Shown here: piece after piece, positions 44,501-59,977 of the stretch | Layout: each line of letters starts with the position of its first letter | Numbering within the stretch: position 1 is the stretch's first letter | From: Clostridioides sp. ES-S-0010-02 | Lineage (GTDB): Bacteria; Bacillota; Clostridia; Peptostreptococcales; Peptostreptococcaceae | Direction: 5' to 3' | NCBI GenBank assembly: GCA_020641055.1 | Contig: CP067345.1 | Coordinates: 2,597,317 to 2,661,316, forward strand | DNA: 64,000 nt | Notes under the pieces: model-generated | Seen by the model: the letters and a program-made list of their open reading frames with translations, nothing else | What the model was told of the DNA's origin: nothing | The model's database searches: none | Program-made: the position numbers and the translations under genes

Positions 44501-45292
44501 TTATATATTGAGTAGACAACTTTCATCTAAAATTTCAGATAATATTTCCTCAGTTCCACTCATTCCATCAAATTTACTTGATATAAATGTGTTTTTTATT
44601 TCATTTTTATTTATATCACCATGCTTCAATACATAAGCTTTATTTGAAATATCGAGCATCCCATAATCCATAATAGAATCCCCAATTGCATAAAAACTTT
44701 CTATTCCTAATTCTTTGGTTAAATATTCTATGGCATTTTCTTTTGAGATTTCTTTTGGTATAAAATAAATTTTTCTACCACTCACATACAATCTCCAATT
44801 TTTTGATTCTAATATATTTATATACTCCCTAATTGAATCTAAATTAAATTTTTTAAAATCTACAACTATATAAAAAAATGTATCCTCTGCAACTTTAAAA
44901 TTAGTTATTCCTTCTACATTCAAATAAATTTTAAATTTATCTACCATGCTTTCAATAGGCTCATAGTCAGATTTTAATTTGTCTATCTTTTCACTCCATG
45001 ATTTCAATATTTCATTATCTTTAAGTATAACTCCTCCATTTGAAGTTATACTCCATGGAAAGTAAATACCATATTTATTAAATTCTATACGCTTAAACTG
45101 CTCTATTGTTCTAGTAGTAGTTGGTACAAACATACCATAGTACTGTATTTGTTTTATTAAATTTATAGTATTTAAAGATATATAAGAGATTTCTTTCTCT
45201 TTATAGATTTCTATATTGTTGTATCTCTTATTAGTATTTAAAAATTTATCAGAGTAAATAATACTCCTGTCTAAGTCTGAAAAAACAATCAT
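44501..45292 (-). CDS. HAD-family phosphatase of the Ter biosynthetic module
   Basis: The 263-residue protein begins with the HAD nucleophile motif FSDLDRSIIY, has the TTRTIEQFKRI motif II near residue 55, and a motif IV region FYAIGDSIMDYGMLD near 210. These match Cof-like HAD phosphatases with a C2 cap. It is the last gene of the biosynthetic set that accompanies TerD systems, where it is predicted to remove a phosphate from the nucleoside-like product. The substrate is not known. It lies 27 bases from the gene before it. Confidence 0.85.
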   Translation of the reverse strand: MIVFSDLDRSIIYSDKFLNTNKRYNNIEIYKEKEISYISLNTINLIKQIQYYGMFVPTTTRTIEQFKRIEFNKYGIYFPWSITSNGGVILKDNEILKSWSEKIDKLKSDYEPIESMVDKFKIYLNVEGITNFKVAEDTFFYIVVDFKKFNLDSIREYINILESKNWRLYVSGRKIYFIPKEISKENAIEYLTKELGIESFYAIGDSIMDYGMLDISNKAYVLKHGDINKNEIKNTFISSKFDGMSGTEEILSEILDESCLLNI

Positions 45293-45319: not shown

Positions 45320-46417
45320 CTAAACATCTTTCATATTCTTTATTATGCCACAACACTTGTAAGCTTTTAAATCTATTTTCTCAACTTCAACATTTTTTTC
45401 TTTTGCCAAAATAAATATATGCTCTAAAGATTTATCATTTAAGTCTTTAACAAGTATCTTATATGGAACTCTCCTAAGTAAAACTCTTGTTGTTTCTCCT
45501 ACCCCTGGCTTGATAAAGTTGATATCTTTTATATCGTACTTTTTCTTTATATTTAAAACATCAAAATAACCATCTTTAGTTATAATATCACTTTTCCATT
45601 TTTCAACTTCATCAGATATATTTTCAAATTGGTTTTTGAAACATGCTTCTATAGTTTCTATATAATTTATAGACTCATCTTTATCCTTTAAATGGCTATA
45701 AAACTTAGCACCATGAAAATCATCCTTACCAATCAAATCTTCTCTTAGCACAGTTCTACTCACTAATCCAGAAACAGTTGAGTTTAAACATGCACTTGGT
45801 ATTAAAAAGTCTTCTCTAATTCCATAAAGTCCAGAATATCCAGCAGGGTCAGCTAATACAGCAAGTGTTGAATCAAAATTCTTTTTAAATTTAATTTTAA
45901 GCTCATCACATGCTTTTTCTAGCTCCCTTGATATTGTTCCCTTGCCAGTCCATCCATCTAAAAATTGTATGTTTGAATCTGGATGACTATTTATTATATA
46001 TTCAACTGCATTCATATCTATTCCTTTATCTCTTATTATAGATATTGTATAGTGAGGTAAATTTAAACTATACTTATTTTTTAGATATCTTTTTGCCAAA
46101 ATACCAATTGGTGTTCCTGCTCTAGCAAGTGAAACTAGTACAACATCATTTCCATTTTTTTTAATTATCTTTTCACACATAACACCTATAGAAAATGCAA
46201 GTTTATTCTTATTTTCTTCTAGTTTATCATGATATAATTTCAGATAATCTTCGCTAACCTCATACTCTATTGGTATCATTTCCGAATAATGTCTACCATT
46301 TTGTATTTTTAACTCTCTCTCTTTGTTTCCTTCTTCTTCAATTAAATTTGATATATCTTTTAATAAAAAGATAACATCATCTTTAGAATATGTGCTAAAT
46401 TCTCTCATATGACTCAA
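45320..46417 (-). CDS. Phosphoribosyltransferase-like / PELOTA-domain protein (StiP type)
   Basis: The 365-residue protein has an N-terminal phosphoribosyltransferase-like domain (VVLVSLARAGTPIGILAKRY near residue 95 and IQFLDGWTGKGTISRELEKA near 150) and a C-terminal PELOTA-like RNA-binding domain (KPGVGETTRVLLRRVPYKIL near 300). This arrangement is the StiP/TerPRTase type in Ter islands. It probably moves a phosphoribosyl group in a nucleoside-like pathway. The older label cysteine protease for this family is not supported by its residues. It overlaps no neighbour but is tightly spaced. Confidence 0.85.
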   Translation of the reverse strand: MSHMREFSTYSKDDVIFLLKDISNLIEEEGNKERELKIQNGRHYSEMIPIEYEVSEDYLKLYHDKLEENKNKLAFSIGVMCEKIIKKNGNDVVLVSLARAGTPIGILAKRYLKNKYSLNLPHYTISIIRDKGIDMNAVEYIINSHPDSNIQFLDGWTGKGTISRELEKACDELKIKFKKNFDSTLAVLADPAGYSGLYGIREDFLIPSACLNSTVSGLVSRTVLREDLIGKDDFHGAKFYSHLKDKDESINYIETIEACFKNQFENISDEVEKWKSDIITKDGYFDVLNIKKKYDIKDINFIKPGVGETTRVLLRRVPYKILVKDLNDKSLEHIFILAKEKNVEVEKIDLKAYKCCGIIKNMKDV

Positions 46418-46461: not shown

Positions 46462-47700
46462 TTAGCTACAACATACTATAGTCAATTTTTTTATACTTGT
46501 ATTTTTAATTATATCAATAAATTCCAGATAAGAATTCTCACTTTTATCTAACTCAACAAATAAATAACACTCAGAAAAATTATGTCTGTCTATGTTGTAA
46601 ATGTAATTTTGAACATCTAAATTATAAAAACTCTTTAATTTAAATTTACTTCTAATAGGATAATTATTTTTATCAATATTAATTATTGGACTTCTAGTTG
46701 TTGAATGATAGTATATATCACATTGATTTTCTTTTTCTTTTGCAAATAACATAGGTATATACATAAATTCTTCAGTGCCTAAAAATAGAACCTTTTCTGC
46801 TTTCTTTTTTAAAGATTCTTTACTTTCTATAACTATTTTTTTACTTTCTCTTTTTATAATTTCTTTTAATTTAATTTGTTCTCTTTTGTTAATTCCAAAC
46901 CTACCTGTATATCTTATATATTTTTTATTTCCAATATAATCTTCTAAATCAACATTGATATGATTTACTATTAAATTTATTTTATCATCCTTCATAATAC
47001 TCAATTTACTAATATTGCAATTATCATTGTAATTTGCAACAATATCTTCACTTATATCAAAATTAAAGTCTCCTTTAAATAAATACACAAATTCTATTTT
47101 ACATCCAAGTTCTATTTCTAGACTACTAATTCTTCTTAAATTTTCATCACTTACCCAATTAAGTATAGAACATATAGTATATATTTTTTTAGGATAGATA
47201 CTTTGAATCTTTCTGATTATATTCATACATGTATTAGCTGTAGTAATTTCATCATCTACCAAAATTACTTCATCGCCAAATTTAAAGTTGTCTAGCATTT
47301 CAAAATATAAATTTTGGTCTGTTGCATGAGAATGTTCTTCTAAAAAGTCTAAATTTTCTAGCTCATCAAATTGCTCTCTAGTGGTATGAATAAATTCATA
47401 ATTTCCAGATAAGTAATCAAAAAAGCTATGCCCAACGGCTGTCCCAGTTTCTGCAAAAGCTATTACAGTTCCATTTGATGCCACCTTATTTTTTTTATTA
47501 TAAATCGTAGCCATTAGTTTTCCTAAATTATCCATTTCACTTGGCTTACAAGCTAAATGTTTTCCAAGTTTTTTTGATATAAATAAAAAACGTCTTTTGC
47601 TGTTATTTCTTATTCCTATATCTAAAAAATCATTTAAATCTAAGTTCAATGGATTATCAACAATGTCAATCTCACAATTAAAATTTAAGCAATTCTTCAT
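46462..47700 (-). CDS. Phosphoribosyltransferase with TRSP domain (Ter module)
   Basis: This 412-residue protein has an N-terminal PRTase_2 domain (VIAFAETGTAVGHSFFDYLS near residue 80 and EVILVDDEITTANTCMNIIR, the PRPP-binding motif, near 148) and a C-terminal TRSP domain (RFGINKREQIKL, then KVLFLGTEEFMYIPMLFAKE and IYYHSTTRSPI). The TRSP domain is found only with this PRTase in Ter islands. It overlaps the upstream aldolase gene by 23 bases, so expression is coupled. It is predicted to build an unusual nucleoside-like metabolite. Confidence 0.87.
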   Translation of the reverse strand: MKNCLNFNCEIDIVDNPLNLDLNDFLDIGIRNNSKRRFLFISKKLGKHLACKPSEMDNLGKLMATIYNKKNKVASNGTVIAFAETGTAVGHSFFDYLSGNYEFIHTTREQFDELENLDFLEEHSHATDQNLYFEMLDNFKFGDEVILVDDEITTANTCMNIIRKIQSIYPKKIYTICSILNWVSDENLRRISSLEIELGCKIEFVYLFKGDFNFDISEDIVANYNDNCNISKLSIMKDDKINLIVNHINVDLEDYIGNKKYIRYTGRFGINKREQIKLKEIIKRESKKIVIESKESLKKKAEKVLFLGTEEFMYIPMLFAKEKENQCDIYYHSTTRSPIINIDKNNYPIRSKFKLKSFYNLDVQNYIYNIDRHNFSECYLFVELDKSENSYLEFIDIIKNTSIKKLTIVCCS

Positions 47701-48754
47701 AGTCTACTCCTTTATTTAATACACCATATATTTTAGATAAAATCAATGTTTTTTTAGCCCATAAAAAATGAGGATTAGTTTCATTCATTCTCTCACCTAA
47801 TATGCCTTTACTCACACCATATTTACTATTTGTACTATCAAGTATCTCCAAAGCATCAGTAAAATCTTCATATGATACTGCAGACAAAGCTTGTACAATT
47901 TGAATTTGCATTGGATGAATTACTGTCTTTCCAACTAATCCATGAAATTTATCCAATAGTATTTCTTCTATATACTTATTTCTTATCTCTTCATTTGTCA
48001 TATCAAAAAATTCCGATACACCTCCACTTATTGGTATATCTATCTCTGGTCTTTGAAGATATGTAATTATATCTAATATAAAAGAAGAACAAATTAAATT
48101 ATTATATATAGAAAAATTTTTATTTCTTCTTATACCATACATACCTAATATGTCAGTTAGACCTATTCTAATACTGAGTATTCTTGATTTATATCTTAAA
48201 ATAGTATTATATAAACTACTGAAGCTTAATTCTTTGTTTTCTTTATATATGAATTCTCTTGTTTCTATTATTGGAATAACATACATATTTTGAAGACCTA
48301 TAGAATTCAAAACTTCTATACAGTTTTCAATTAACTCAGAATTTGCTTTAGGAATCAATATTCCTGTTATTGTATTATTGTTTTTAATTATAATATCTTT
48401 AATTCTTAGCAATTGCTCTACATCTTTTATTCTCACAAAAATTAATGGTATACCATCTTTATTAGTTATATTTTCATTGCTAATATTTTTCAAAATCAAT
48501 TTAAGATTTTCTATAGCCTCAGATTCTCCATTTGCCCCAACAGCATCTTCTAAACAAATAGCTAATGGTCTAACTCCCTTAACATCACCTATAATACTTT
48601 TATAAATCATGTTATATTGAGTCGCTGGAACGTATAAAAAAGCACCTAGTGCATATTTCAGTACATCTTTTTCAGTATTGGCATTAAAGTCTTCTGGCAC
48701 TTTCAAAAAAATTTTCTCTAAATACTCTTTGCAGATATAATCGAAATATTTCAA
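47678..48754 (-). CDS. HpcH/HpaI aldolase / CitE-like lyase (Ter module)
   Basis: The 358-residue protein has the TIM-barrel pattern of CitE/HpcH: ALGAFLYVPATQYNMIYKSI near the start, RPLAICLEDAVGANGESEAI near residue 85, IPIIETREF near 175 and VGKTVIHPMQIQIVQALSAV near 275. The Glu-Asp pair in CLEDAVG and the ETRE segment fit the metal-binding carboxylates. It starts the biosynthetic set of the Ter island and overlaps the TRSP gene by 23 bases. Its substrate is not known; the reaction would be a C-C bond cleavage or formation. Confidence 0.87.
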   Translation of the reverse strand: MKYFDYICKEYLEKIFLKVPEDFNANTEKDVLKYALGAFLYVPATQYNMIYKSIIGDVKGVRPLAICLEDAVGANGESEAIENLKLILKNISNENITNKDGIPLIFVRIKDVEQLLRIKDIIIKNNNTITGILIPKANSELIENCIEVLNSIGLQNMYVIPIIETREFIYKENKELSFSSLYNTILRYKSRILSIRIGLTDILGMYGIRRNKNFSIYNNLICSSFILDIITYLQRPEIDIPISGGVSEFFDMTNEEIRNKYIEEILLDKFHGLVGKTVIHPMQIQIVQALSAVSYEDFTDALEILDSTNSKYGVSKGILGERMNETNPHFLWAKKTLILSKIYGVLNKGVDYEELLKF

Positions 48755-48814: not shown

Positions 48815-49951
48815 CTACTTATTATAAATTATAGCTGTATTTAATTCTTCTAATCTCTTTGTATTATCCTTAATTGTAACTCTATTATTTTCTTCTATTC
48901 TCATAGTTTCATCTATACCAGATTTAATTGTATTGTACATTTTTTCTAATGTCTCTATTTGCACAGAGCTTGTTCCAGCCATCCTAGCTATTTGTGCACT
49001 TTGAGAACTTACATTTTGTGCATTTCTAAGCAGTAATTCATTAGTTTTATCATCAAGAGCTTTTAAAGACTTTGCTTGTAATTCTTGCTTTTTAAGTAAT
49101 ATAGCTTGAGATAAACATTGTTTAAATACTGGTAGAGTTACAACAAAGGCACTATTGATTTTTCTAATTAAACCATAGTTATTATGTTGCATACCTCTCA
49201 GCATAGGTATAGTCTGAATAGCTATATTTTCTGCTATCCTTAAATCATAGACTCTTTGATTTAACATATCATAGACTTTTAATAGTTCTTGATAGTTGAC
49301 AATATCCATTTGGTCTCCACTAGTCTCTGATTTTTGTTTGAAATATGGTAGTATTTCATTATCCATTTCTTCTACTGCCATTTCTCCAGCAACAATATAT
49401 TTTTGAAGTTCATTATAAAAGTCAAAATTTTCATTTAGCATAGCACCAATTTGCTTGTTAGAAAGAGCTATATCTCTTTCATATTGTTCAAGTTCAATTT
49501 GAATCTTTTCAACTTCTCCTCCCAGTGTTTCATACTTTTGAAACATCATTTCAATAGCATTATTAGCTTTTTTGAAAAGTTTTTGAACAAAATTTGGTTC
49601 CTTAGTTTCTTGAAAATCATCTAAATCAAACTTATCCATTATTTTAGTTAAGTGAACAAGCATCTTAGAATTTTCTTCATTTCTATTTAATTTTATTGTG
49701 TTTAATAGGCTATCAGAAACTCTAGCTACTCCTTCAGATGCTTTTCTACCAAATTGTAAAATTGTATCTGGATTTTCTACTTCTATAAGAGAAGTTAAAG
49801 CCTCCACCTCTTTAGACTTTCTAAGTTCATTTTTTTTATTATTTGTATATTCCATTATATCAAAATTTTCTTCTTGTATAGTCGTAGGTAAATTTTCAAC
49901 AGTCTCTACAGAATTATTATCTTTTGAAAAATTATTTATATTTATCCCCAT
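48815..49951 (-). CDS. TelA-family toxic-anion / stress protein (YceH-like)
   Basis: The 378-residue protein is nearly all alpha-helical coiled coil and has TelA marks: SLLNTIKLNRNEENSKMLVH, YETLGGEVEKIQIELEQYER, MLRGMQHNNYGLIRKINSAF and ILLKKQELQAKSLKALDDKT (short segments). TelA/KlaA proteins accompany TerD genes and tellurite or envelope-stress resistance; the molecular role is not settled. It directly follows the YceG-like gene, sharing the boundary (49951/49952), and belongs to the same transcript. Confidence 0.9.
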   Translation of the reverse strand: MGININNFSKDNNSVETVENLPTTIQEENFDIMEYTNNKKNELRKSKEVEALTSLIEVENPDTILQFGRKASEGVARVSDSLLNTIKLNRNEENSKMLVHLTKIMDKFDLDDFQETKEPNFVQKLFKKANNAIEMMFQKYETLGGEVEKIQIELEQYERDIALSNKQIGAMLNENFDFYNELQKYIVAGEMAVEEMDNEILPYFKQKSETSGDQMDIVNYQELLKVYDMLNQRVYDLRIAENIAIQTIPMLRGMQHNNYGLIRKINSAFVVTLPVFKQCLSQAILLKKQELQAKSLKALDDKTNELLLRNAQNVSSQSAQIARMAGTSSVQIETLEKMYNTIKSGIDETMRIEENNRVTIKDNTKRLEELNTAIIYNK

Positions 49952-51514
49952 TTAAAATCGTCTCCTCTTGCCAAAAATTTTTTTAAGTAAAGGTATTCCA
50001 TCTTCAAGTAAGTTCAATTTAAGGTCATATACCATTTTATCCAATCTGTGTATATCAATCAATTGGTTATTTATAACATTTTCTATATTATTTTCTCCGC
50101 CTGGAGATAATATAATAATATCAAATCCAATTTTACTAAGTAAAAGCATTAGGAATACAACTTCTTTATCAAACACAATGCTCTTATACATATATATAAC
50201 CAACTTTGGATTTATGAGAGAGTAATCGAAATTATTCATCATATGAACAAGCTTTTTATCCATATGAAGTACTGTGAATAAGCCTTTTATTTTATCCTCT
50301 CCACTTAGTCCATTTAAAAACATGTTGCCTTCTATAAGTTCTTCCACTTTTTCTAAAATCATAATTTGTTGATTTAATGCTAATGTTGAAATAGAATATT
50401 CTTTATTATTTAAAACAGAATTTTTATCTATAATACCTTTTGAATTTAATACAAATGATAGGCTAAAAGCTTCTCTTGTAAATTCTTTTGAAAATCTATC
50501 TATCTCTCCATTAAATTCAATAAATGTTGAACTTTCTGAATCTCTTAATAAATCTAAAAACTTAATGTATTCATTTTTATCATTATATATTCCATTGATT
50601 TTAGAAAAGAAAACTGGAGTTTCTACTATAATATCATTAAACTTAAATCCTGGTCTCAATTTTAATGGCTGATTCCAATATATTGATATTTCATCAATAG
50701 TTGAACTTAAAAGCAAGCTTTTTATTTTTCTATCTTGAAGTTGCCAGGGTTTTATAAATCCAGCATCATTTAACAATTCTTCACTTATTCTTTTTGATGC
50801 TTCTGCTCCAACAGTAAAAGCTTTTTTTACAGAGCCTTTATCTATCTTTTCACCTGAAACAACTCTATCTTCAAAAGAAACATTTTCTTCTATTATATTA
50901 GCCTCTTCTAATTCTATCTTATATTTCTCTAAATTTAAGATACTTATATTACTCTTTGAGTTTGGATTAAGGTATAATATATCAAATCCTGCTAAGTACA
51001 ATATTAAAAGTAGATAGACTTCATGCTTTTTTATGTCTCCATAAAATATTATTTTTGGAGCATCATTTTTATTTATATCTAAGGCACCAATATAAGTCTT
51101 TATCCATGCCATTATTTTCACTATAAAATTTTGTTTAACTCTATCATTAGTAAAATCTTTTTCTTCCTCTTTTAATACTTTATCTATTGCTTGCTTTATT
51201 TTATAATCTATTTCTTCAAACCCTAAAATACTTATGTCTACATCTTCTGTACTGTTTTTATAATTTTTAAGCCCATTTTTAAAATAATTAATAATGTCAA
51301 AATCACTAGGATTTGCTATAGCATCAGTAAATAAGGCAATATCTTTTCTACTATCAATATTTTGCTTCGCCTTAAATATTTCAAGATTATACAAAATCTC
51401 ATCTTCTAAACCAATATATGAAATAAAATAACTTAGATATCCCTTTGAAGGAGTGTAATTTCCTCTATCTGATTGGCTGGAGAATATTTTTTCAAATACC
51501 TTTGAGTCACCCAT
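49952..51514 (-). CDS. YceG-like protein of the Ter island
   Basis: The 520-residue protein matches the YceG family seen in the Bacillus yceCDEFGH operon. It has two similar parts: residues of about 27-240 (YFISYIGLEDEILYNLEIFK, PKIIFYGDIKKHEVYLLLIL, FDILYLNPNSKSNISILNLE) and a second copy later (LIIYMYKS, VVFLMLLLSKIGFDIIILSP). The internal duplication is visible from the FDILYLNP and FDIIILSPGG repeats. It lies between the calcium ATPase and TelA-like genes. The function is unknown. A protease fused to a related N-terminal domain is encoded at the far side of the island. Confidence 0.85.
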   Translation of the reverse strand: MGDSKVFEKIFSSQSDRGNYTPSKGYLSYFISYIGLEDEILYNLEIFKAKQNIDSRKDIALFTDAIANPSDFDIINYFKNGLKNYKNSTEDVDISILGFEEIDYKIKQAIDKVLKEEEKDFTNDRVKQNFIVKIMAWIKTYIGALDINKNDAPKIIFYGDIKKHEVYLLLILYLAGFDILYLNPNSKSNISILNLEKYKIELEEANIIEENVSFEDRVVSGEKIDKGSVKKAFTVGAEASKRISEELLNDAGFIKPWQLQDRKIKSLLLSSTIDEISIYWNQPLKLRPGFKFNDIIVETPVFFSKINGIYNDKNEYIKFLDLLRDSESSTFIEFNGEIDRFSKEFTREAFSLSFVLNSKGIIDKNSVLNNKEYSISTLALNQQIMILEKVEELIEGNMFLNGLSGEDKIKGLFTVLHMDKKLVHMMNNFDYSLINPKLVIYMYKSIVFDKEVVFLMLLLSKIGFDIIILSPGGENNIENVINNQLIDIHRLDKMVYDLKLNLLEDGIPLLKKIFGKRRRF

Positions 51515-51598: not shown

Positions 51599-54358
51599 TT
51601 AAGCTGTTTTCTTTGGTTTTACTAATCTTATTACACACTTTACAACTTCATTGAATACAACTACACTTGCTGCAACACATAAAACTTTTACCCATGTCAT
51701 AACATCCATAGCTACAGAATTAAAGAAATCTTGGAATAACTGAGTAAATATTACTTGTGCAATACCTGTTAAAACTATTATTTGTAATGCTAGTTTATTA
51801 TGTGTAAAGTTTGGAAAAATACTATCTGCACTAAATTCTCTACAGTTAAATGCATTAAATAATGCACTAAAAGCAAATAACGCAAACATTACAGTTCCCT
51901 TATGAGCTTCATCAACACCTAAGAAGTTAAATGTAGATTGTAACATTAGTATTGCTGTTATATAGAATGCATTTAATACTATTGTATATACCATTGACTT
52001 AGAAATTATATTTGCTTTTCTATCAACAGGTTTTCTATTTAATACGTGGTCTCTAACAGGCTCTAAACCTAATGCTAGTGCTGGTGGCCCATCCATAATT
52101 ATATTTACCCACAACAATTGTATTGTTGTAAATGGCATTTCTTGTCCCATAACCTGAGATATTATAGCCACTAAAAATGCAATTACATTTACTGTTAATT
52201 GGAATTGAACAAATCTTTGGAAGTTATCATAAATTCCTCTACCCCATTTAATACCTTTTACAATAGTGCTAAAACTATCATCAGTTAAAATTATATCTGC
52301 TGCACTTTTTGATACTTCTGTACCAGATATACCCATTGCTATACCAACATCTGCCTTTGAAAGCGCTGGGGCATCATTTATCCCATCACCTGTTACAGCA
52401 ACAACATCTCCACTCTTTTGAAGAGCTGAAACTATTCTCATTTTACTATCTGGCTTACTTCTTGCAACAATCGAAATAGTTTGTATTTCTTGTTTTAATT
52501 CTTCATCATCTAAAGTATCTATATATGAAGCTTCAACTGCTCTCATATTTCCTTTTAATAGACCTAACTCTTCACCTATAGCTCTTGCTGTATTTATATT
52601 GTCTCCTGTAAGCATTTTTACAGAAACACCAGCTTTATTTGCTGTATTCACTGATTCTATAACATCTTTTCTAAGTGGGTCTCTTATACCAACAAATCCA
52701 CTAAATACTAAATTACTTTCCATTGCACTTACATTCATAGAATCACTTTCAGCAGTTACTGCTGCTTCTTCTTCAGCTTGGGAAATTTCTTTATATGCAA
52801 AACCTAAGGTTCTCATTGATTTTACTTGTAATTTTTTTATTTCTTCTAAAATCTCATGTTTTATACCTTCAGTTATTGGAACTATGTCTTTACCTCTTTG
52901 AATGTGTGAACATAGCTCAAGCAATACTTCTGGTGCTCCTTTTGATAACAACACATGATTATTATCTTGACCTATGACAGATGTCATTCTCTTTGAATCA
53001 GAAGTAAACGGATTTTGAGCTACTATATTAGATTCTTTTCTAACTTGTCTGTAATCTACATTTTTATAATATAGAAGTAATGCACATTCTGTAGCACTTC
53101 CTAGGTACTTAACATCATTATCATTATGCTCTACATCAGCTGTAGAGTTTATCATACAGTTTTCTTCAAAATAACTATTTATTTCTTCTTCTGAGCTCTC
53201 AATATATCTTCCATCAATATATGCAACTTCTACTGTCATTCTATTTTCTGTTAATGTACCAGTTTTATCTGAACATATTACAGAAACAGAACCTATAGTT
53301 TCACAAGCTTCTTTTTTGGTAACTAAGGCATTTATTTTAGCCATTTTTTGCATTGTTATTGCAAGTGTCATATTTATCATAGTTGGCAGACCTTCTGGAA
53401 CTGCTGCAACTATCAATGCAACACATACTGTAAAGGCTGTTTTAACAGGGTCTATTGATTCTAAAAATGGTAAAATTCCAGACATATCAACATTTAATAC
53501 ATTCTTACTTACCATTTGGAAAACCATGAATATAAATAATAGTCCTGCTACTGCACTGGAAACTTTAGCTATCAATCCGCCTAAATTTCCAAGCTTTATC
53601 TGAAGTGGAGTTTGCTCATCTGCATCTGATAAGTTTTGAGCGATTTTACCCATTTCACTGCTATCTCCAATTGAAGTTACAACTAATATTCCTCTACCAT
53701 AAGCAACAAGTGTACCACCAAATACCATATTTATTTGTTTTGCAGGAATTGGTTCTTGTACCACTAGTGCTCCTTTAGATTCTATTTCTTCCATTGGAAC
53801 TACTACATCACATTTTTTAGATACATCATCTGATTCTCCTGTTAACATATCTTCTCTAATTTTAAGATTTATAGTTTCTATAAGTCTACCATCAGCAGGT
53901 ACCATATCACCAGTTTCAATATATACTATATCTCCTGGTACTAGTTCATTCTTAGAAATTTGATGTATTTCTCCATCTCTTAGTACTTTAACTTCAATAT
54001 TTTCAGTCATCTTAGAAAGAGCATCTGCTGCTTTCTTAGAACGACCTTCTGTAATCATACCTATTGCTATACCTATTGCTATAGCTCCTACAATCCCTAT
54101 TGCATCATGAGTTTCTCCAATTACTGCACTTACTACTGCTGCAATAATTAAAATAACTATCATTGGTTCACTTAAACTGTCTTTTAAATCATCCCAAAAG
54201 CTTCCTTCCTCTTTTGGTGTAAATTCATTTAAACCATACTTTTCTCTTCTAGTCTTGACTTCTGATTCTGATAGACCTCTATCAGGGTTAACAGATAAGT
54301 CTTTAGTTACGTCTTCTTTGTCAACATTATAATATTTGATATCGTTATTAAATTCCAT
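51599..54358 (-). CDS. Calcium-translocating P-type ATPase (SERCA-like)
   Basis: The 919-residue pump has the PII-type marks: MLTGESDDVSKKC actuator, PEGLP (AAVPEGLPTMINMTLA) in helix M4, CSDKTGTLTENRM phosphorylation site, and MVAVTGDGINDAPAL-type hinge (VAVTGDGINDAPALSKADVG). It has ten membrane helices in the usual 2+2+6 pattern. It should export Ca2+. I take the ATG at 54358 as start, with in-frame TTG and GTG upstream as alternatives. It overlaps the TerD gene by 11 bases and so is coupled to the calcium-binding TerD proteins. Confidence 0.92.
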   Translation of the reverse strand: MEFNNDIKYYNVDKEDVTKDLSVNPDRGLSESEVKTRREKYGLNEFTPKEEGSFWDDLKDSLSEPMIVILIIAAVVSAVIGETHDAIGIVGAIAIGIAIGMITEGRSKKAADALSKMTENIEVKVLRDGEIHQISKNELVPGDIVYIETGDMVPADGRLIETINLKIREDMLTGESDDVSKKCDVVVPMEEIESKGALVVQEPIPAKQINMVFGGTLVAYGRGILVVTSIGDSSEMGKIAQNLSDADEQTPLQIKLGNLGGLIAKVSSAVAGLLFIFMVFQMVSKNVLNVDMSGILPFLESIDPVKTAFTVCVALIVAAVPEGLPTMINMTLAITMQKMAKINALVTKKEACETIGSVSVICSDKTGTLTENRMTVEVAYIDGRYIESSEEEINSYFEENCMINSTADVEHNDNDVKYLGSATECALLLYYKNVDYRQVRKESNIVAQNPFTSDSKRMTSVIGQDNNHVLLSKGAPEVLLELCSHIQRGKDIVPITEGIKHEILEEIKKLQVKSMRTLGFAYKEISQAEEEAAVTAESDSMNVSAMESNLVFSGFVGIRDPLRKDVIESVNTANKAGVSVKMLTGDNINTARAIGEELGLLKGNMRAVEASYIDTLDDEELKQEIQTISIVARSKPDSKMRIVSALQKSGDVVAVTGDGINDAPALSKADVGIAMGISGTEVSKSAADIILTDDSFSTIVKGIKWGRGIYDNFQRFVQFQLTVNVIAFLVAIISQVMGQEMPFTTIQLLWVNIIMDGPPALALGLEPVRDHVLNRKPVDRKANIISKSMVYTIVLNAFYITAILMLQSTFNFLGVDEAHKGTVMFALFAFSALFNAFNCREFSADSIFPNFTHNKLALQIIVLTGIAQVIFTQLFQDFFNSVAMDVMTWVKVLCVAASVVVFNEVVKCVIRLVKPKKTA

Positions 54359-54977
54359 ATACACACTCAATCCTGTCTAAATTTTGCATTACTTCTTTAA
54401 GACCCGCATCTTTTGTTCCTTCACCTATTGCTTTAAACTGCCAACTTCCATCTTTTCTATATATAACCCCTACTATAAGAGTAGTTTTTTCTGAATAATT
54501 ATCAGATAAATTATACTTTGCTATTTCCTTTTTATTGCTTTGGTCCTCAACTCTTATATAGGCATTTTTTATCATCCCAAAGTGTTGTTTTCTGTCTATA
54601 CAATTGTATATATTTACTACAAATAATAATCTGTGAATATTTGATGGAACTTTATCTAAATTAACTAGAATTTGTTCATCATCACCCACACCTTCACCAG
54701 TTAAGTTATCTCCTGTATGTAAAACTGACTTACAGGCACTCTTTAAATTTCCAAAATAAATTAAGTCTTTTATACCACTTAATTTTCCTTCCTGATTTAG
54801 CATAAATACAGATGCATCGCAATCTATATCAGCTTGTCCTCCACCAAATAAAGACTTAAGGAATCCTCCACCTGACTGTTGCACAGGGTCCCATCCTAGG
54901 CCCACAAGTATATTACTCAATCCTGGGTTGGATTTTTTTAAATCTATTTTATCACCCTTTGATAAATTAATTGACAT
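54348..54977 (-). CDS. terD: TerD-family protein (third copy)
   Basis: The 209-residue protein is a TerD paralogue. It begins MSINLSKGDKIDLKKSNPGL, has the acidic calcium-site LHTGDNLTGEGVGDDEQILV and the C-terminal VGVIYRKDGSWQFKAIGEGT. A 15-residue Gly-rich insert (SGGGFLKSLFGGGQADID) separates the opening from the second acidic stretch and is missing in its two neighbours. Its stop region overlaps the calcium ATPase start. TerD proteins bind Ca2+ and are induced by stress. Confidence 0.92.
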   Translation of the reverse strand: MSINLSKGDKIDLKKSNPGLSNILVGLGWDPVQQSGGGFLKSLFGGGQADIDCDASVFMLNQEGKLSGIKDLIYFGNLKSACKSVLHTGDNLTGEGVGDDEQILVNLDKVPSNIHRLLFVVNIYNCIDRKQHFGMIKNAYIRVEDQSNKKEIAKYNLSDNYSEKTTLIVGVIYRKDGSWQFKAIGEGTKDAGLKEVMQNLDRIECVYGI

Positions 54978-55062: not shown

Positions 55063-55641
55063 CTAAACACTTAATCCATAGTTTCTGCAAAGTGCTTCTA
55101 AGCCACCTTCAAATCCTGCTCCAACTGCACTAAACTTCCATTCTCCATTATATTTATATATCTCACATACTGTAATTGCAGTCTCTATACTAAATTCTTC
55201 GCCTAAGTCATATCTTAATATTTCTTGGTCATTTTCAGAGTTTAAAACTCTTATATATGAGTTACTTACTTGTCCAAAGTTTTGTTTTCTTTCAGCAGCT
55301 TCATATATTGTAACTGTTACAGCTATTTTTTGTATATGCTTTGGCATTGTATCTAAGTTTACTAATATTTCTTCGTCATCTCCATCACCTTCACCAGTTC
55401 TATTATCACCTAAATGCTCAACTGCTCCAGATGGATGTTTTAAATTATTATAGAATATAAAATCTTCATCTCTTTCAACTCTTTGAGATTCTCCTACCAT
55501 AAAAACACTGACATCTAAATCGTAATCATATCCACTATCAAATGAATTTGTATCCCATCCTAGTCCAAGTCTAATATTTTTAAGTCCTGGATTTCCCTTA
55601 GTTAAATCAATTTTTTGTCCTTTTTTTAATACTATAGCCAT
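55063..55641 (-). CDS. terD: TerD-family protein (second copy)
   Basis: This 192-residue protein has a complete TerD pattern: [58 protein letters not shown] and [20 protein letters not shown]. The aspartates of the D-x-D-x-S and [11 protein letters not shown] motifs form the paired Ca2+ sites. GGAGGGGG lies before the start. It is very similar to the first copy, suggesting a recent duplication. Confidence 0.95.
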
Positions 55642-55675: not shown

Positions 55676-56254
55676 TTATAAGTTTATTCCAAAGTTTCCA
55701 CATAACGCAGCAAGTCCACCTTCAAAACCAGAACCTAGTGCGTTAAATTTCCATTCTCCATTGTGTTTATATATTTCAGCTACTACTATAGCTGTCTCTA
55801 TACTAAAATCTTCACCTAATTCATACTTTATTAGCTCTTCATTTGTATCTTTATCTACTATTCTTATATAAGAATTACTTACTTGCCCAAAATTTTGTGT
55901 TCTTTCTGTAGCATCATGAATTGTAACTGTAAAAGAAATTTTGCTTATTTCTCCAGGAATCTTAGATAAATCAACAACTATTTGCTCATCATCTCCATCA
56001 CCTTCACCAGTTCTATTATCACCTAAATGTTCAACTGCTCCAGAAGTATGCTTTAAATTGTTGTAAAATACAAAATCTCCATCATTAGTAACACTTCCAC
56101 TTGCTCCTGTTAAAAATGCTGCTGTATCTAAGTCAAAGTCAAATCCACCATCATACTTGTTAGTGTCCCATCCTAACCCTACTAAAATATTTTTAAGCCC
56201 TGGGTTTCCCTTAGTTAAATCAACCTTTTGGCCTTTTGATAATGTTATACCCAT
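55676..56254 (-). CDS. terD: TerD-family protein (first copy)
   Basis: The 192-residue protein has the same TerD pattern as its neighbour: [58 protein letters not shown], then [20 protein letters not shown]. It is the first gene of the island transcript, preceded by GGGAGCG and about 330 bases of intergenic DNA that hold divergent promoters. It should bind Ca2+ and take part in the metal or envelope stress response. About 70% identity by eye to the second copy points to duplication. Confidence 0.95.
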
Positions 56255-56583
56255 AATTTATCGCTCCCTTGTTAATTTTAGCTAAACAAATCTTGCTAAT
56301 TATTTATCTTTTTCTTTAATCATATTATAACATTTTTTATTCATTTGTGAATAAAACTTACTTGATATTTTTAAAATATAATTAAAAAAATGTTTATATT
56401 TCTTACTTTTTACATAGATTTTACATATTTTTTTAAATAGATAAAATCTATGTTTAATATGTAATTATATATCATTTATATATACAAGTATACATTTTAT
56501 TTTGAAACTACAAAATTCTTTGTACTATATTGTTTTAAGATGTTTTATAATAGATTATATCATCTTATTAGAGGAGAAAAAAT
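56255..56583. other. Divergent intergenic region at the head of the Ter island
   Basis: About 330 bases, very AT-rich, between the first TerD gene and the divergent YceG-protease gene. It must hold both promoters. TATAAT-like sequence and a GAGGAG ribosome site for the plus-strand gene are seen. No clear operator palindrome was recognised. Confidence 0.5.
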
Positions 56584-58020
56584 ATGATTTGTACTATTAA
56601 ACCATTAAAAGTTGTAATAAAGAACTCAAAAGAGCCTTTAAATGAATTTATGTCTAGTAAGTCTTATACAAATAAGAGTTCTTCTTATATTAAAGAAGTC
56701 TACTTTACACGATATATAGGTATTGATAATTCGATTGATAAATACATAAAAAACATCAAAAATATAGATGCTCATTTTTTTAACAATATAACAGTTCCCT
56801 ATATTAGTCTAAACAACTTAAATATAAATTTTGATAAATCACAAACAGATAAGATGCTCAATACTTTCAATACTTATAATGATGCTAAATTTAACAGTTG
56901 GAATTTATACAATATTGAATTTCCTTGTAAGATAGAAAATGATACATTAGATTGGACAAAAAAAATTGCATTTAAAAATACATTAGATTTGTTTTCTAAA
57001 AACACACCACATTCAACACCTTCTATTGTTAAAAATTTTGCTGTTAAACTTTTATGTTGGATAGATTATTTTCTACCTAAATTATTTTATAATAAAATTA
57101 AAATTACTGTTTCACCCAAGGTAGTGTATTTTGGTAATATTAAGAGACAGGAACTTTTTTTCTTATATTTTTTATCACAGCTTGGATGTGATATTTTATA
57201 TATAAATCCTCATAAGGATATCCTTGATTTGTATCCTGAATGTTCTAGATTTTCTACTTTAGTTGAATTTTCTAAAAAAAGTCCAACTATGCTAGATATA
57301 CCTTTGGAAAAATTAAATACAGATATAAATAAGAACATCAATAATAACAAAACTTATACTCCTATAAATAAACCTCAATCTGAACAAACTTCTGTTGACA
57401 CAAACTTTACATCTACAAAAAATAAAAAAGATAAAGAAATAGAACTTACATATGAAGAACTCGCAAAATTATCAACTTCCGTTGTTATGATTGTTGTGTG
57501 TGATAATGAAAACAAACCATTCAAGAGCGGTTCTGGAGTAGTCATAAATAGTGAAGGTTACATACTTACAAATCTCCATGTAGTTAATGAAGGCTATTCA
57601 TTTTTAGTTAGATTTGAAAATGATGATAAAGTTTATACATCACATCAAATCATAAAATACCACTCAGATTATGATTTGGCTGTAATAAAAGTTGATAGAG
57701 AATGTAAATCAATACCAGTCAAGGTTAGTAAAAAACCTGTAAGAGGCCAAAAAATAGTTGCAATTGGAAGCCCTTTAGGTCTTTTCAATACAGTTTCAGA
57801 TGGAATTATCTCTGCTTTTCGTGACTTTGAAACAGTTCAAATGATACAATTTACAGCTCCAATCTCTAGTGGTAGTTCTGGAGGGGCTCTTTTAGATATG
57901 TTTGGCAATTTACTGGGATTAATTTCTGCTGGATATGATGATGGACAAAACTTAAATCTAGCAGTGGAAAGTCATCTTGTCAAAATATTTGCCAATAATT
58001 TTATCGAAATAATAAACTAA
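56584..58020 (+). CDS. Fusion of a YceG-like N-terminal domain and a trypsin-like (HtrA-type) serine protease
   Basis: The 478-residue protein has two parts. Residues 1 to about 230 resemble the YceG-like protein in the same island: EVYFTRYIGIDNSIDKYIKN corresponds to YFISYIGLEDEILYN; KVVYFGNIKRQELFFLYFLS corresponds to KIIFYGDIKKHEVYL; CDILYINP corresponds to FDILYLNP. A flexible Asn/Lys/Thr-rich linker follows (about 235-290). Residues 300-478 are a chymotrypsin-fold protease with catalytic His (LTNLHVV), Asp (SDYDLAVIKV) and Ser (SSGSSGGALLD); all three are present. There is no signal peptide, PDZ domain or membrane helix, so it should be cytosolic. It diverges from the TerD genes. It could cleave Ter components or act as a stress-activated effector. 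Confidence 0.9.
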   Translation: MICTIKPLKVVIKNSKEPLNEFMSSKSYTNKSSSYIKEVYFTRYIGIDNSIDKYIKNIKNIDAHFFNNITVPYISLNNLNINFDKSQTDKMLNTFNTYNDAKFNSWNLYNIEFPCKIENDTLDWTKKIAFKNTLDLFSKNTPHSTPSIVKNFAVKLLCWIDYFLPKLFYNKIKITVSPKVVYFGNIKRQELFFLYFLSQLGCDILYINPHKDILDLYPECSRFSTLVEFSKKSPTMLDIPLEKLNTDINKNINNNKTYTPINKPQSEQTSVDTNFTSTKNKKDKEIELTYEELAKLSTSVVMIVVCDNENKPFKSGSGVVINSEGYILTNLHVVNEGYSFLVRFENDDKVYTSHQIIKYHSDYDLAVIKVDRECKSIPVKVSKKPVRGQKIVAIGSPLGLFNTVSDGIISAFRDFETVQMIQFTAPISSGSSGGALLDMFGNLLGLISAGYDDGQNLNLAVESHLVKIFANNFIEIIN

Positions 58021-58043
58021 TTTACTCTTTCTTCATACCAATA

Positions 58044-58078
58044 GAGAGGGTGAGAACATTATATATGTTCGCCCTCTC
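58044..58078. terminator. Stem-loop between protease and asnB genes
   Basis: GAGAGGGTGAGAACAT and ATGTTCGCCCTCTC form a long, GC-rich stem with one mismatch, between two convergent genes. U runs are weak on both sides, so it is a plausible but not ideal bidirectional terminator. Confidence 0.55.
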
Positions 58079-58093
58079 CATATCATGAAAAAA

Positions 58094-59977
58094 TTAATAC
58101 TTGATGTTTTTATGCTCTATAAACAATTGATGCCATAGACAAAATGTAAATATAGTCCATATTTTCCTTGAATTATCTTTGTGACCTTTTAGATGTTCAT
58201 CTAAAAGTTTTATTATATATTTTTTATCAATAAACTCGTCTACATTTGCATTGGAAATAGTTTCTCTTACAACAACTCCTAAATCATCTTTTAACCAAAC
58301 TCTTATTGGCGTTGGAAATCCTAATTTTTTTCTCTGAATAACATGCTCTGGTACTATATCTTTAAAAGATTCTCTAAGTAGCACTTTTGTGTTATTTTTT
58401 GTTATTTTTTGTTCAACTCTTAAATTTTTTGCTACATCAAATACATCTTTATCTAAAAAAGGTACTCTAAGTTCTAGATGCTCAGCTACAGAAAATTTAT
58501 CAACTTTTTGAAGTATATCACCTTGAAGCCATGTATTTACATCTATATGTTGCATTTTACTTATATAATCGTAATTATTTTTCTGCGCTTCTCTGTACAA
58601 ATTTGATAATAAATACTCATGTATATTCTTTTCCTTATATTTAAAAAAGAATCTTTTTACTTCATTATTTTCAAAAATCTTCGCATTTCCTATATATCTC
58701 TTTTCTAAAGGTGTTGTAGCTCTGTAAAGATAATTTTTGCCTTTTATATTAGGCATAAGCTCTGAAACTCTATTTAATACGCCTCTAATATACACTGGTG
58801 AATTTATAACTGATTTCACATTATTATATTCCTTGTATACATTATATCCCCCGAATAATTCATCAGCACCTTCTCCAGACAAAGCTATTTTAACATATTT
58901 ACTAGCTTCTTTAATTAAAAAATAAAGACCTACTCCTGATGGGTCTGCCACAGGGTCATCCAAAAAATAAATTACACTCGGTAATGCTTTTATATAGTCA
59001 TCTTGTGTTATGTTAAGTGGAATGTTTTCTATGCCCAATTTATCAGCTGTTTTTTTAGCTATTTCCAATTCACTATACCCTTTAACATTAAAACCTAGCG
59101 AAAAAGACTTTATATTTGGATTAATTTGTGAAGCTATAGAGGTTATAATTGATGAATCTATACCACCAGACAAAAATGTCCCAATTTGTTTATTTTCTGC
59201 TACCTGTCTTCTTACCGAATCTATTACTACATTTCTTATTTCTTCTTCGCCTATATCTCTATTCCCTAAATGATTCTTACTGTAAAAAAATTTTGTACTA
59301 CTCCTAAATTCAAGTTTATTGTATCTCTTTAAAGATAGTATTCCGTTTTCCACTCTAAAAAAATGTCCTGCTGGTATCAATCTTATTCCTTGTATCATAG
59401 TATCTTCAGGAAGAACATATTGAAACGAAAAATAACTCTGTAAACTTCGTTCATTTATGTTTAGTTTTTTAACATACTCGAGTATAAATTTATATTCTGA
59501 TGCAAAGATTATCACTTTTTCTTTATTTATATAGTAAAGTGGTTTTATTCCAAATAAATCTCTTGCCCCAAATATGCTTTCATTTTCTTTATCATATATT
59601 ATAAAGCTAAACATACCTTTTATCTTATGTACACAATTTTTTCCAAATGCTATATAAGATGTTAATAAGATTTCAATATCACTATCTGTAGCAAAGCTGT
59701 ACCCTTTTTTAATCAATTCTTCTTTTATCTCGCAACTATTATATATTTCACCATTTAAAACTATAACCTTTCCATCTTTTTCAAATGGTTTAACTCCATG
59801 TATAACATCTATTACATCAAATCTATTAAAATCAAACTCTTTTTCCTCACCTTTTAAGTATCCTCTACTATCAAGACTTATATGATTTATATTATTTACA
59901 GATTCTTTTATTTTAAATTTAATATCTTCTTTTTTAGATATATCTCCTTTATAATAAATTGAAATATTGCCACACAT
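58094..59977 (-). CDS. asnB: Asparagine synthetase (glutamine-hydrolysing)
   Basis: The 627-residue enzyme has an N-terminal glutaminase (MCGNISIYYKG with Cys2, then VIVLNGEIYN and ATDSDIEILL) and a C-terminal synthetase (FLSGGIDSSIITSIA PP-loop near residue 260, ALSGEGADELFGGYNVY near 350, LRVPFLDKDV near 495). It makes asparagine from aspartate, glutamine and ATP; homologues in some Firmicutes amidate cell-wall diaminopimelate instead. The opening MCGNI is somewhat different from the usual MCGFVG/MCGIVG. It stands alone. Which role applies is not visible. Confidence 0.92.
   Translation of the reverse strand: MCGNISIYYKGDISKKEDIKFKIKESVNNINHISLDSRGYLKGEEKEFDFNRFDVIDVIHGVKPFEKDGKVIVLNGEIYNSCEIKEELIKKGYSFATDSDIEILLTSYIAFGKNCVHKIKGMFSFIIYDKENESIFGARDLFGIKPLYYINKEKVIIFASEYKFILEYVKKLNINERSLQSYFSFQYVLPEDTMIQGIRLIPAGHFFRVENGILSLKRYNKLEFRSSTKFFYSKNHLGNRDIGEEEIRNVVIDSVRRQVAENKQIGTFLSGGIDSSIITSIASQINPNIKSFSLGFNVKGYSELEIAKKTADKLGIENIPLNITQDDYIKALPSVIYFLDDPVADPSGVGLYFLIKEASKYVKIALSGEGADELFGGYNVYKEYNNVKSVINSPVYIRGVLNRVSELMPNIKGKNYLYRATTPLEKRYIGNAKIFENNEVKRFFFKYKEKNIHEYLLSNLYREAQKNNYDYISKMQHIDVNTWLQGDILQKVDKFSVAEHLELRVPFLDKDVFDVAKNLRVEQKITKNNTKVLLRESFKDIVPEHVIQRKKLGFPTPIRVWLKDDLGVVVRETISNANVDEFIDKKYIIKLLDEHLKGHKDNSRKIWTIFTFCLWHQLFIEHKNIKY

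Follow-up and report, generated by a model that had tools for sequence, protein, structure and literature searches.

Ter island and fusion gene

The stretch of Clostridioides DNA analysed here (the window; 64,000 nucleotides) belongs to a 4.26-Mb genome in a single contig and carries a Ter island, whose genes lie on the reverse strand. The island is made up of three terD genes (55676..56254, by PF02342 match; 55063..55641, by PF02342 search; 54348..54977, by Pfam), a P-type cation ATPase gene recognised by eye from its DKTGT motif (51599..54370), a canonical yceG gene whose product has two PF14266 stretches by Pfam and hhalign (49952..51514), and genes assigned by Pfam to TelA (48815..49951), a C-C bond lyase (47678..48754), a PRTase_2 protein with a TRSP domain (46462..47700), StiP with a PELOTA domain (45320..46417) and a HAD hydrolase (44501..45292). 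The Pfam name of the island StiP is that of a cysteine protease. On the forward strand, beside the first of these terD genes, lies a gene for a 478-residue protein (56584..58020) in which a YceG half-domain is fused to an HtrA-like protease. The 329-bp intergenic stretch between terD, on the reverse strand, and the fusion gene (56255..56583) is largely identical across seven genomes of the genus in the alignment, and by position it would hold the promoters of both genes. A promoter scan of 56200-58200 gave 22 matches, as compared to 15.3 (sd 4.2) in shuffled sequences.

On the forward strand, the fusion gene is composed of a YceG_bac domain of the first-half type (residues 34-211; 56683..57216; Pfam and hhalign), a linker (residues 226-286; 57259..57441) that is fast evolving by dN/dS and of low model confidence, and a trypsin/HtrA protease domain without PDZ (residues 287-478; 57442..58017). 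The codons of the catalytic residues lie at 57577..57579 (His332), 57673..57675 (Asp364) and 57877..57879 (Ser432, in the motif GSSGG). Pfam placed PF14266 (YceG_bac) at residues 34-211, with 71 bits against a curated cut-off of 25, and PF13365 (Trypsin_2) at residues 316-446, both above their cut-offs. Neither a signal peptide nor a membrane helix was seen, judged by hydropathy only, and Pfam, searched up to E 1, listed no PDZ family; behind the last protease helix (463-477) the chain stops at residue 478. The triad H332/D364/S432 was present in all 12 aligned proteins and its motifs in all 21 carriers of the fusion. The preliminary description, which had proposed a YceG-like N-terminus and an HtrA-type C-terminus with a complete triad and with no PDZ domain, signal peptide or membrane helix, is thus borne out, except that the N-terminus corresponds to the first half of YceG only.

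The fusion is genuine and not a chance join, since it recurs in seven of the eight genomes of the genus, in at least 18 of the 393 genomes of the order and in three more from wider samples. For the seven species pairs compared, out of 21 possible, dN/dS was 0.03-0.09 for the protease, 0.09-0.19 for the N-domain and 0.28-0.84 for the linker, a pattern that indicates two conserved domains, both under purifying selection, joined by a loose tether. The N-domain and the linker differ widely across families, as would be expected if the protease domain served solely in binding or signalling or were no more than an idle remnant; we consider this very improbable, as the triad motifs persist in 21 of 21 carriers and the protease has the low dN/dS just given.

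The protease domain and the YceG half

The modelled protease domain has the fold of DegS-deltaPDZ, and the fusion shares with the DegS/HtrA proteases (S1C) the trypsin-like fold and the His-Asp-Ser triad. It differs from them in having a YceG half instead of PDZ domain, signal peptide and anchor, and it falls far below the HtrA cut-offs: the NCBIfam HtrA/DegS/DegP models gave an alignment of at best 109.3 bits against a cut-off of 416.2. The best sequence match of the fusion in the PDB was 7sjy, the trypsin-like protease domain of RsgI9, which is named an anti-sigma-I factor and has different partner domains. In the protease tree, 20 of the 21 carriers formed one clade (98/96), so that repeated independent fusion need not be invoked; the remaining carrier (G658) grouped beside a long-branch secreted protein of G1065, and a single clade of all 21 protease domains was allowed by the AU test (p 0.19). 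By eye, relatives of the protease without the fusion (L077, L083, L088, L096) start with signal-like N-termini and carry repeat or surface domains of other kinds.

The PADLOC search matched the protease part only (residues 273-465) to RT-Protease_XI (E 1.1e-17) and weakly to Avs1b (E 1.8e-5). No reverse transcriptase domain was found in the fusion by Pfam, and the PADLOC match is confined to those residues, so the likeness to the RT-Protease_XI defence system is limited to the protease. These matches, together with a layout of sensor, linker and protease, would suit a suicide or effector protease like the trypsin-domain defence systems, in which Ter signals, whether a metabolite or an attack by phage, release the cutting of essential proteins. 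Four other island proteins (YceG, TelA, StiP and one TerD), on the other hand, matched no PADLOC defence model, and residues 1-305 matched nothing in 50,697 phage records, which also led us to reject a phage gene. Most defence genes are not known to be retained at the same place across the genomes of a genus, whereas the fusion occupies the same locus in seven of the eight here. We therefore regard a suicide protease as improbable. A plasmid gene was likewise rejected, as the whole protein had matches in 748 plasmid records and none of those listed reached a coverage of 80%. In IMG/VR, pattern scans turned up no relative, either of the fusion or of YceG.

The canonical island YceG is an internal duplication by Pfam, with two PF14266 stretches. 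By hhalign, the profile of 14 fusion N-domains matched the first half of seven YceG proteins at 99.8% (E 4e-28) and the second half at 1.6%, while the two halves matched each other at 93% (E 3e-7) and a control comparison of the fusion N-domain with the protease gave 0.1%. The fusion thus has one YceG domain of the first-half type and lacks the tandem arrangement of canonical YceG. Among the carriers with divergent N-domains, PF14266 scored above the cut-off in G388, G379 and G264; G107, with 24.0 bits, and G147, with 20.3 bits and a gene truncated by the contig end, fell short of it. The island YceG had no relative in the PDB by sequence up to E 1. AlphaFold2 gave a mean pLDDT of 32.6 with a 10-row alignment and 59.2 with 35 rows, and residues 1-280 were of low confidence in both; the 35-row model is good for the protease and poor for the N-domain, and the PDB rows used for it cover mainly residues 286-477, so it carries no inference on the N-domain fold. 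The YceG/MltG protein of E. coli shares the name of YceG_bac and is an unrelated protein. As compared to the YceG_bac protein of the B. subtilis type (PF14266), the fusion N-domain exceeds the family cut-off, but the fusion has one half only and a protease in addition. The B. subtilis YceG is encoded in the stress operon yceC-yceH, whose genes are listed under SigW, SigB and SigM in the part of PMC3498285 concerned.

The YceG domain also occurs in other arrangements. In G388 (L072:10226-12523), G147, G911 and G1079, YceG proteins match PF14266 three times within a single frame, the frames of the last three being 761-799 residues long, and L034:583-3102 and L105:5001-7493 resemble them. G166 (L104:4440-7735), a genome in which TerD was not found, encodes, next to TelA, two proteins with a single YceG domain of the second-half type; by eye, this is followed by membrane-like segments and, in one of the two, also by MORN-like repeats. 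These three-match and single-domain proteins indicate that the YceG domain is modular outside the fusion too.

Distribution and linkage to the Ter genes

Within the genus, the seven fusions are 79-96% identical to the window copy. In the eighth genome (G007, L054:5127-7171), a gene resembling a transposase, by eye of the IS256 type, stands in place of the fusion, of which the last 24 codons remain, and TerD, YceG, TelA and the remaining island stretch read there keep full-length frames. The 18 or more carriers of the order, counted among the matches listed with up to four candidates scored per genome and 20 loci opened, include the seven of the genus, six of family f11, whose matches are nearly full-length, and five with a more divergent N-domain (G388, G147, G379, G264, G107). 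Searches of 391 class and 398 phylum genomes, which kept matches of E <= 1e-42 only, added G658 in the class and G911 and G1079 in the phylum; this threshold was passed by 22 class genomes, 20 of them through the protease part alone, and by 10 phylum genomes, seven of them likewise. Two narrow peptide patterns run against the genome contigs matched four Clostridioides loci only.

Two of the fusion genes are irregular. In that of G658 (L097:8711-10123), the YceG part is interrupted by an in-frame TAA, and some 115 further residues follow the protease at the C-terminus. That of G388 (L072:8106-9862) is spread over two overlapping ORFs, and its linker reads DVYKGQ, which we take to resemble a translated sequencing adapter; an assembly fault in this gene is therefore likely.

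All 18 order carriers encode TerD (called at E <= 1e-30), as compared to 70 of the 393 order genomes overall, and TerD was also found in the three wider carriers at the sensitivity of the searches. The co-occurrence has p 4e-15 by genome and 8e-6 by genus (8/8 vs 39/158), values that assume independent lineages, so that with relatedness the true p is larger. StiP was present in 20 of the 21 carriers, the exception being G147, a draft that is 79% complete; as compared to 40 of the 52 TerD genomes without the fusion, this excess is not significant (p 0.09). Conversely, the fusion was not found, among the matches listed, in 52 of the 70 TerD-positive order genomes, which counts against the reading that we favour below; since G007 moreover retains the island without it, the fusion is dispensable.

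The fusion adjoins Ter-island genes in 13 of the 21 carriers, seven of which are Clostridioides. It lies between the lyase and YceG in G388, one ORF away from YceG in G147, between the lyase and a YceG-type ORF in G379, beside the lyase in G264, between the lyase and the HAD-PRTase-StiP genes in G107, where it is about 15 bp upstream of HAD, and beside HAD in G1079. The association with Ter that the preliminary description had put forward is supported through TerD, StiP and this adjacency. In the other eight carriers the fusion is off the island: in G091, G139, G158, G149 and G658 it lies 46-227 kb away, and in G117, G125 and G911 it is on another contig. This too counts against the favoured reading. 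No common partner was found among 10 proteins near the off-island fusions at four loci (G117, G139 and G125 of f11, and G911); these neighbours were a permease, an IS200-like transposase, MerR, GGDEF, BtuR, cyclophilin, 3-dmu-9 family and EamA proteins and two proteins without family.

The HtrA-type domain and the position away from the island in these eight genomes would both be accounted for by a general quality-control protease, a cytosolic HtrA whose proximity to the island is incidental and whose YceG half serves as a stability or oligomer module. Such a role seems unlikely to us, because it leaves unexplained both the presence of TerD in 18 of 18 order carriers, against 70 of 393 genomes overall, and the adjacency to island genes in 13 of 21.

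In G117, G091, G139, G158 and G149 the fusion is the sole PF14266 match of the genome, and in G658 both PF14266 matches lie within the single stop-interrupted fusion gene. Outside the genus, no separate YceG was thus found in six of 14 carriers, and we reject an obligate YceG partner. The earlier proposal of an HtrA-type protease that is cytosolic, bears a YceG-like domain and is linked to Ter is supported; action on YceG-like partners as a requirement is not.

Rearranged Ter proteins were also seen elsewhere. By eye, TerD is followed by a vWA-like domain in G149 (L102:4222-5646) and by a second TerD-like domain in G100 (L103:4554-5726). StiP lies within open frames of about 786-859 residues in G102, G139, G158, G117 and others (family f11 and other genomes), which suggests that it is fused to island neighbours.

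A putative protease of the Ter response

The role of Ter islands beyond tellurite is a long-standing open question, and Ter is reportedly the subject of a 2012 review by Anantharaman, Iyer and Aravind. In the literature searched, mostly non-subscription, we found no description of a YceG-protease fusion and none pairing YceG with a trypsin-like domain. The fusion is a new pairing of known domains with one published parallel, the P. syringae protein YP_273108.1, which is listed in PMC2605481 and called functionally uncharacterised there. As described in that listing, a Ter-family domain precedes a trypsin-like protease, as in the fusion, but the domain is TerD where the fusion has YceG. In C. 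difficile, the passage concerned in PMC9674922 reports that CD1634, CD1636 and CD1639 are phosphorylated under kinase control and that the kinase mutants are tellurite sensitive. The CD1639 (TelA) peptide ALDDKTNELLLR given there is present in the window TelA. As CD1639 is TelA and the genes for YceG, the ATPase and three TerD lie between, the gene count puts CD1633 at the fusion, and CD1633 is very probably the fusion gene by gene order in the window against the CD numbering. In C. difficile 630, CD3284 and CD1633 are given as homologues of htrA, neither of them affected at 41 C, in a passage of PMC3408451 that makes no mention of a YceG half. The absence of any described role, as claimed at first, hence applies to the fusion as such, while CD1633 had been printed as an htrA homologue and a TerD-trypsin protein had been listed (PMC3408451; PMC2605481). 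If CD1633 is the fusion, the result at 41 C in strain 630 speaks against general quality control, and it also counts against the reading favoured here (PMC3408451). TerD synthesis in C. difficile rises with metronidazole, according to the part of PMC6262375 concerned.

TerD is a constant and StiP a nearly constant companion of the fusion while YceG is optional, and this leads us to favour a protease that acts in the Ter response by way of its YceG half. We thus think it rather probable that the fusion is an accessory cytosolic serine protease of the DegS/HtrA type in the Ter response, putatively targeted or gated by the YceG half in replacement of a PDZ domain. HtrA proteases are held idle or directed by an extra domain, such as PDZ in DegS and DegP, and the YceG half may take the place of PDZ as the aiming or gating module. 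Docking on a component common to Ter systems, either a TerD complex or the module of StiP, PRTase and lyase, or else binding of a product of these systems, would then place the protease at its substrate or turn it on under stress. A separate YceG protein would be an optional partner at most, and action of the protease on TerD or TelA is possible.

In Ter islands, the StiP/PRTase/lyase/HAD module has been proposed to yield a nucleoside-like product, and the fusion might be a ligand-gated intracellular protease whose YceG half senses this product and switches on the HtrA domain. The operon-like order of fusion, HAD, PRTase and StiP in G107 and the retention of the fusion in genomes where no separate YceG was found both fit such gating, which we nevertheless hold to be a long shot; if true, Ter islands would be a second-messenger-to-protease pathway.

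The favoured accessory protease offers a handle on the Ter systems, as a YceG half is joined to a well-understood protease and a binder of that half should alter a measurable reaction. Genomes that have the fusion as their sole YceG-domain protein set the half-domain apart from canonical YceG. The fusion points to an unstudied protease in the Ter stress response of a gut bacterium and of other bacteria with these genes.
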